64,000 nucleotides of DNA. Origin: Kiritimatiellia bacterium. Lineage in GTDB: Bacteria; Verrucomicrobiota; Kiritimatiellia; CAIVKH01. Below the pieces are notes generated by a model. The model ran no database searches, had not been told where the DNA came from, and saw only the letters and a list, made by a program, of their open reading frames with translations. The DNA lies in assembly GCA_025054615.1 (NCBI GenBank), contig JANWZO010000008.1, positions 1-64,000 of the forward strand. The letters run 5' to 3'. The translations under genes and the position numbers were made by a program. Positions 53,203 through 54,969 of the stretch are shown here, one piece after another; position 1 is the first letter of the stretch; every line of letters starts with the position of its first letter.

Positions 53203-53553
53203 TTTGTATCACCGACCGCGCTGAGCATTCGGTGAGCAGCGATTGAGGCACCAAATCTGCTCTGTTGCGGTATCAGAATGCAAATCCGCGCCCGTCGTGG
53301 ACGATGCTATCTATGGAGAACGGAAGCTACACCGCCAATCATGTCGAATAATGGGCAAGGTTTCGGATGGGCGGCTCTTGTGCATCACCGCTGCGGCGAA
53401 GGTGCAAACTACGCTTTTTGCTAGAGAACATCTTGCGTATCGGCGGGCGCAACAAACGTATGATCCGGTGAACGGAATGGACGCTTGGCATCCCCTAAAG
53501 GCGAGCTAGGATGATTTGCGCATACGTTTTCGATTATCGGAAGGAGAGAATCC
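53203..53553. other. Non-coding gap before the CoxI-like gene
   Basis: 351 bases with no convincing gene, tRNA or riboswitch. Near its right end there is a 9-bp inverted repeat, AAACGTATG (53454-53462) and CATACGTTT (53521-53529), 58 bases apart, that could be an operator or a stem; it lies just before the CoxI-like gene. I saw no clear -10/-35 pair. AAGGAG at 53541-53546 is the ribosome site of the next gene. Confidence 0.5.
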
Positions 53554-54969
53554 ATGCAAGCAACGTCGATTGCAGTGAGCGATGCGCCGGCCGGCAGCCG
53601 GTCCCGTTCCATGGGAATTGGAGTTGCGGCCTATGGCTGGCTGATTGCATCGGCCGCGCTGCTTGCTCTGGTCTTCGGCTTGGCCATCCGAATTGAATGG
53701 CTTACTCCTGCACTGGACGCGATGCAGGCGCGCACCTTCGGCGCCGCTCTCACTCTCCACGGGGCGCTCTCCTTTTATTTCGTTCTTTTGCCACTCGGTT
53801 TCACTGTTCCCGCTCTGGTAACGCTTCGGTATTTATCGTCGGCCGGTGCCTTACCTTTTCCACGGCTCACCGCGTGGGGCTATGGTTTTTATGCCGCGGG
53901 GTTGGGGACTCTGGTCGTCTACGCTCTTGCCGGCGGCAGTGAGGCAGGCTGGAGCGGGGCAAATGTTTTTGGCGGAATTTTTGAGGGCGCCCGGCCCATC
54001 GGTCTGGCGGGTTTGTGTGCCGCGCTGTCTCTTGTGGCGCATGGAATTCAGGCGGCGTCTTCCGGCGGCATCCGAACTCTGCAACTTGCCGGAATGCTTT
54101 CGATATTCCTGCCTGCGGCCGGCGTGATGGCGCTTTTGACGGGCGCAGCACTGGCGCTTTGCATGACCGCGGTCTTATTGGACGGCCTGGGAGGCGTTCA
54201 TTTGTTTGACCCGGTTGCGGGCGGCGATCCTAGAATGTATTTCTATGCCTTTTCCATGTTTCGATCCTCCGCGCTGTCGCTTGTAGTGCTCGCACCGCTC
54301 CTGCTGAGCGCGGGTTGGCTGGAACCACGAGCAGAAATTCGCGTGAGGCCGAGAAGCGTTTGGACCGTCGCAGCCTTGGCCGTGTTTTCCGCTTTGCCGT
54401 TGGGAGGAACGGGCCTTGCGCTGAAATTCGCGGCGTGTTCCGCGGCCTGCCTTGCCATCGGCTTGCTGGCTGCTCGCATGGCCCAGCGCGCCCCGATGTC
54501 CGCCTCAGAGCGGCTCCTGCCGGCCGCCTTGTTCATTGGCGGCTTGCAGGCGTTGTTGGGCCAGTTCCTCCTAGCCACGCCGGTAGGCGCCCAGATCTCC
54601 GGCCAAACGACTTTGGAATCGGCGTGCCTTCATCTCGCGGCGATGACATCTGTGGGTTTTGCCTGGCCCGCCGTCGCGTTGCTTGCCCGTTCGAATTCGG
54701 GGCCGCAGTCGGCTGGCCTCGATGCGTTTATCGTGGCCGCTGCCTTGGTTCTGTTCGCCGGCATTCAGGTCACTGTTATGCCCGACGCTCTTACCGGTCT
54801 CCACGGCCTGTCGTTCCGGGCGAATGCCTATCCCGCCGATTTTCAGGTATTGAAGGTGCTCGGCGCTGCCGGCTCGACAATCTTTGTGGTCGGGTTTGCG
54901 CTGCTATACATCGCCCTTTGGCGAGTCGTCCGCAACTCGTTTCCCGCAAAGGCGGATGCATCGGCCTGA
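53554..54969 (+). CDS. Cytochrome-oxidase-subunit-I-like protein lacking the CuB/haem a3 site
   Basis: 471 residues with about twelve hydrophobic segments and a strong ribosome site (AAGGAG, 7 bases before the ATG). The fold is recognisable from order and wording: LHGALSFYFVLLPLGFTVPA (helix II, H69), RLTAWGYGFYAAGL, VHLFDPVAGGDPRMYFYAF, a CLHLAAMTSVGFAW helix X and the final YPADFQVLKVLGAAGSTIFV, matching the YPxxFxxxNxxSTxGA end of subunit I. Helix II keeps its haem-ligand histidine (H69) and the helix X CLH keeps the second low-spin haem ligand (H360). The HPEVY motif is replaced (RSSALS), the helix VII histidine pair is gone, and the haem a3 ligand position is C358. No subunit II or III gene lies nearby. 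It cannot be an ordinary oxygen reductase; a haem-bearing electron carrier or sensor is possible. Confidence 0.8.
   Translation: MQATSIAVSDAPAGSRSRSMGIGVAAYGWLIASAALLALVFGLAIRIEWLTPALDAMQARTFGAALTLHGALSFYFVLLPLGFTVPALVTLRYLSSAGALPFPRLTAWGYGFYAAGLGTLVVYALAGGSEAGWSGANVFGGIFEGARPIGLAGLCAALSLVAHGIQAASSGGIRTLQLAGMLSIFLPAAGVMALLTGAALALCMTAVLLDGLGGVHLFDPVAGGDPRMYFYAFSMFRSSALSLVVLAPLLLSAGWLEPRAEIRVRPRSVWTVAALAVFSALPLGGTGLALKFAACSAACLAIGLLAARMAQRAPMSASERLLPAALFIGGLQALLGQFLLATPVGAQISGQTTLESACLHLAAMTSVGFAWPAVALLARSNSGPQSAGLDAFIVAAALVLFAGIQVTVMPDALTGLHGLSFRANAYPADFQVLKVLGAAGSTIFVVGFALLYIALWRVVRNSFPAKADASA

Follow-up and report, generated by a model that had tools for sequence, protein, structure and literature searches.

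A stand-alone gene in the window (i.e., the whole stretch of 64,000 nucleotides analysed here) encodes what, to judge by its alignments, is a paralogue of the A-type cytochrome c oxidase subunit I (COX1), one in which the capacity to reduce oxygen and pump protons is lost and the pocket of the low-spin haem is kept. We interpret the protein, which is kept by selection, as a bis-His mono-haem pseudo-oxidase that would work at the periplasmic face, a reading that we regard as about evenly balanced between right and wrong. The combination behind it, low-spin ligands only in a gene that stands alone and is under selection, appears to be new as far as open papers show. The features discussed below are collected in Table 1.

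Table 1. Position and basis of the features read in the window
Feature	Position	Strand	Description	Basis
COX1-like gene (putative pseudo-oxidase)	53554..54969	+	471 aa, ~12 transmembrane helices predicted, short helix VII	PF00115 match; helix pattern of low-confidence model; ortholog in G006
Ribosome binding site AAGGAGAG	53541..53548	+		read directly
R46 codon	53689..53691	+		alignment with bovine COX1 R38
H69 codon, helix II	53758..53760	+	kept in ortholog	aligned with first low-spin haem ligand
Residues 238-242 (SSALS) at HPEVY position	54265..54279	+	CuB His and cross-linked Tyr lost	alignment
C358 codon, haem a3 His position	54625..54627	+	Ala in ortholog	
H360 codon, helix X	54631..54633	+	kept in ortholog	aligned with second low-spin haem ligand
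R422 codon	54817..54819	+	adjacent R438 position is F421	aligned with bovine R439
Decayed prepilin-like (DUF1559) gene remnant	53253..53506	+	intact copy in G006	tblastn, two frames

The reading frame is open, starts with ATG and is preceded by the strong ribosome site that the first-pass annotation had pointed out (AAGGAGAG, ending 5 bases upstream of the start codon). That annotation had also described the gene as standing alone, and this holds: no subunit II or III is found among the open reading frames between 48 and 60 kb of the window, and no cox genes lie near. No electron-transfer partner is encoded near the gene either, and no adjacent signalling gene was seen.

The homology to COX1 may be counted as shown. 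The profile PF00115, proposed in the first-pass annotation as a check on the COX1 assignment, aligns residues 25-442 of the protein with its positions 4-435 of 436 at 44.4 bits (E 1.4e-11), above the curated cut-off of 34.8 bits, and all the subunit I motifs named there are in place (LHGAL with H69, DPVAGGDPRMY, ACLHLAA with C358 and H360, and YPADFQVLKV). The distance from working oxidases is nevertheless large: the NCBIfam CtaD model (TIGR02891), whose cut-off is 671 bits, gives the protein 70 bits, and its identity to the A-type COX1 of the same genome, by local alignment, is 24%. AlphaFold reached a pLDDT of 41 from the two known orthologs alone and of 44 when five true COX1s were added, both too low for distances in the haem pocket to be read. 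The latter model follows the 12-helix pattern, in which helix VII is short; its best Foldseek matches are COX1s (TM 0.58-0.65), a result that is partly circular given the true COX1s in its alignment. For the model made without true COX1s, the five best matches are COX1 chains as well, at E values of 0.07-0.63. The homology and the probable fold class are of an already known kind, and the protein itself is best placed outside the oxygen reductases, whose defining ligands are absent from it.

The extent of this loss was read from a reference alignment in which true COX1s of the class and the phylum stand beside those of IMG/VR contigs, and which has 125 nearly invariant columns. Of these, 31 are retained by both the window protein and its ortholog, and neither protein retains any of the 13 residues belonging to the binuclear centre, to the Arg/Mg positions next to it or to the D- and K-channels. 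The HPEVY box, which the first-pass annotation had already called replaced, reads SSALS, with S238 and S242 standing at the positions of the CuB histidine and of the cross-linked tyrosine, and the helix VII His-His stretch, likewise reported as absent, is lost in an alignment gap ~13 residues long. The positions of the channel residues of the COX1 of the same genome (N100, D111, N118, N180 and K335) are all replaced or gapped in the window protein. The high-spin haem a3 histidine of helix X is replaced by C358 in the window protein and by Ala in the ortholog; the cysteine had been singled out earlier, and its position was correctly assigned, but its meaning as a feature falls with the alanine of the ortholog, which also rules out that it binds haem or metal. 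As far as these residues tell, the protein has lost both oxygen reduction and proton pumping, so the earlier statement that the protein does not reduce oxygen is well supported.

The low-spin haem pocket has had a different fate. A MAFFT alignment of the protein with true COX1s puts H69 and H360 at the positions of the canonical low-spin ligands, the column of H360 being invariant, and the HMM alignment of the ortholog places the low-spin histidines likewise, so the positions proposed for them in the first-pass annotation stand in both proteins. One pairwise BLASTP alignment shifts helix X by one residue, beside gaps, which we regard as an alignment artefact. True COX1s have nine invariant histidines; the two low-spin ligands alone survive here, and they are the sole histidines that the window protein and its ortholog have in common. 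R46, W133 and R422 are also kept in both. The retention of R46, H69, H360 and R422 (4/4, against the background of 31/125) has a hypergeometric probability of 0.003, falling to 0.0007 when W133 is added (5/5), and identity between the two proteins is 68/83 for the stretches that surround the low-spin pocket, as compared with 37/119 for helices VI-IX of the binuclear side, all of these being descriptive figures, as the residue list was drawn from family knowledge and the segment limits and groups were set after viewing the alignment. Even so, the retention of the pocket evidently exceeds coincidence, in a pattern that is known from two sequences only.

The second of these sequences belongs to a genome of the same family (G006; public contig CALGMT010000026.1) and is 47-48% identical to the first. 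It came from the search for orthologs and conserved neighbours suggested in the first-pass annotation, which found this one ortholog, with the same gene order, among the eight species of the order, the gene thus being present in 2/8 genomes. The order common to both loci is DUF547, zwf, udp, thyA, folA, prepilin and the COX1-like gene; two other genomes (G004 and G005) have the same gene row without the prepilin or the COX1-like gene, and continue with other genes. In G005, what look like indel errors from long-read assembly have put a frameshift into both zwf (L084) and coxA (G005:C4:63107-64424). The prepilin of G006 is intact (L023:9315-9980; PF07596 and PF07963) and ends 20 bases before the start of the COX1-like gene, while that of the window is a frameshifted and truncated remnant in two frames, next to an intact COX1-like gene. 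The COX1-like gene has therefore persisted where its neighbour decayed, and is independent of it, and the prepilin remnant is part of the ancestral locus and not of the function considered here.

A third member was found neither in 288 genomes of the class nor among the matches listed for 388 genomes of the phylum, neither in viral contigs nor in plasmids, and not in the genome collection when searched with two short peptide patterns, by which distant kin would be missed. The weak PF00115 matches listed for the class were read one by one, and those of G015 (discussed below) and G017 are different things. The latter (L066:9348-10673, on G017:C194) is a NorB/COX1-like protein of 441 aa with a mirror-image change, as the histidines of its binuclear site seem kept (the helix VI His, the His-His pair and the helix X His) and its second helix X histidine, the low-spin ligand, reads Met (VVGHTM). 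G319:C3:14026-15366, a strong match to COX1, carries 10 TGA codons in frame; its contig is one of three in that genome, and this may be the mitochondrial genome of a host assembled together with a symbiont, or else a recoded element.

Could the gene simply be decaying after a duplication? Its patchy presence in the order, its fast change and the decayed prepilin beside it are what an early decay would produce. However, both frames are intact at a synonymous distance near saturation (dS ~2.0-2.2, with dN 0.56 and dN/dS ~0.26), which is not how a pseudogene behaves, and a pseudogene was rejected on the intact frames in both species together with this ratio. The strongly patterned conservation and the good ribosome sites also stand against early decay, and we consider a non-functional gene very improbable and largely refuted. 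The frame is under purifying selection, in a gene that is yet evolving much faster than true COX1, which is 93% identical between the same two genomes, as opposed to 47% for the COX1-like pair.

Conservation has moved towards the low-spin side and the periplasmic loops. With sides assigned by the canonical topology, and with loop boundaries taken from the weak model and fixed after seeing the alignment, 57/86 positions are identical in the periplasmic loops vs 16/61 in the cytoplasmic ones (Fisher 2e-6). True COX1 pairs at a comparable overall identity lack this bias (e.g., 35/85 vs 20/52, and 41/85 vs 26/52). In the complete enzyme, electrons arrive from subunit II at the surface above the low-spin haem. 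Since the parts kept are the low-spin haem site and this overlying surface, and the parts lost are the machinery for oxygen and protons, a mono-haem cytochrome is what we propose. A single six-coordinate low-spin haem would sit towards the periplasmic side, ligated by H69 of helix II and H360 of helix X, and R46 and R422 would hold its edge and its propionates. As the binuclear centre and both proton channels are gone, such a haem would give electrons to, and take them from, a partner in the periplasm, which could dock on the conserved periplasmic loops; the haem would so act as a relay. Haem binding, haem type and the role in electron exchange are all three what we infer from the sequence, and the same holds for the electron transfer or sensing proposed in the first-pass annotation.

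As for the haem type, the ba3 enzyme has Gln at the position of bovine R38, and its low-spin haem is haem b. R38 of bovine COX1 hydrogen-bonds the formyl of haem a (PMC12901375), and R46, which aligns with it, would suit haem a, haem b being the alternative. The genome has CtaA (and CtaB, by our reading of its cox cluster), so the cell can make haem A.

Such a protein may be seen as a natural half-oxidase, reduced to the electron-entry haem and the periplasmic docking face, which would relay electrons between periplasmic carriers or report the redox state; this further step is put forward tentatively, and we would sooner doubt it than assert it. In a stricter version, COX1 would have become a haem-based redox sensor, where the haem reports the redox state with no onward electron transfer. 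That the gene stands alone, with neither a CuA subunit nor a partner, would agree with this, and one haem placed at the periplasmic face would be apt for sensing, but a six-coordinate bis-His haem leaves no free site for a gas and no signalling gene was seen adjacent, which makes a pure sensor improbable.

A more serious rival is that the protein binds no haem at all, and that the COX1 fold serves as a scaffold, for binding a periplasmic partner or as an aid to oxidase assembly, the two histidines being ancestral left-overs or structural. This is kept in consideration because of the second degenerate protein of the class, a stand-alone and intact COX1-like protein of 466 aa from another family (L065:8096-9496, on G015:C123; PF00115 57.6 bits). 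Like the window protein, it keeps the histidine of helix II and has lost HPEVY, the His-His pair and the haem a3 histidine; unlike it, it has no histidine in helix X, has a full-length helix VII and is closer to true COX1 (a local COX1 profile gives it 131.9 bits, vs 71.1 for the window protein). Its gene adjoins a mechanosensitive-channel-like gene, and no relative of it was found in 267 genomes of the class. Persisting with an intact frame, this protein shows that the COX1 scaffold can survive in the absence of a usual low-spin haem. The fast evolution of the window gene would also fit a scaffold, and the conserved periplasmic loops would suit docking equally well. On the other hand, it is precisely the low-spin residues that were singled out for retention in the window pair, and the G015 protein is a separate singleton whose kinship to the pair is unsure, given that the tree joins them with support of 96/93 on extreme branches, too long to place it with or apart from them. 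A haem-free scaffold is in our opinion possible, though we lean against it. If, as in the mono-haem reading, a single low-spin haem is held, the protein would be a natural dissection of cytochrome oxidase, in which redox and docking could be studied apart from the coupled oxygen chemistry, and it would mark a route from a respiratory enzyme to a new electron carrier or partner.

We found in open papers no description of a stand-alone COX1-like protein under selection with only the low-spin ligands kept, subscription literature being outside the scope of this search. Pseudo-oxidases may be hidden, and this silence explained, by the fact that at least one published survey and classifier of the superfamily threw out sequences without six histidines (PMC3084760).

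The genome itself (2.48 Mb, 95% complete) has three PF00115 genes, including that of the window. One of the others, on contig C6, was considered as the paralogue of interest and rejected, being a CcoN-CcoO fusion of the cbb3 type. The remaining one is the A-type (aa3) COX1 of contig C16, in a complete cox cluster that, as we read its translated reading frames, comprises alternative complex III, Sco, coxB, coxA, coxC and ctaB. With A-type COX1 (CtaD/CoxA) the window protein shares full-length homology, the predicted 12 helices, the GGDP box, the low-spin ligands, the pocket Arg and Trp and the XI-XII loop with R422 and Y426; it differs in the absence of the CuB ligands, the cross-linked Tyr, the haem a3 ligand and the D-/K-channel residues, in its shortened helix VII and in having no subunit II or III. 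NO reductases (NORs) retain the three FeB histidines and the high-spin histidine, our criterion for NorB, of which the window protein has none, and what it would have in common with NorB and the other haem-copper relatives is the superfamily fold and the positions of the low-spin bis-His haem.
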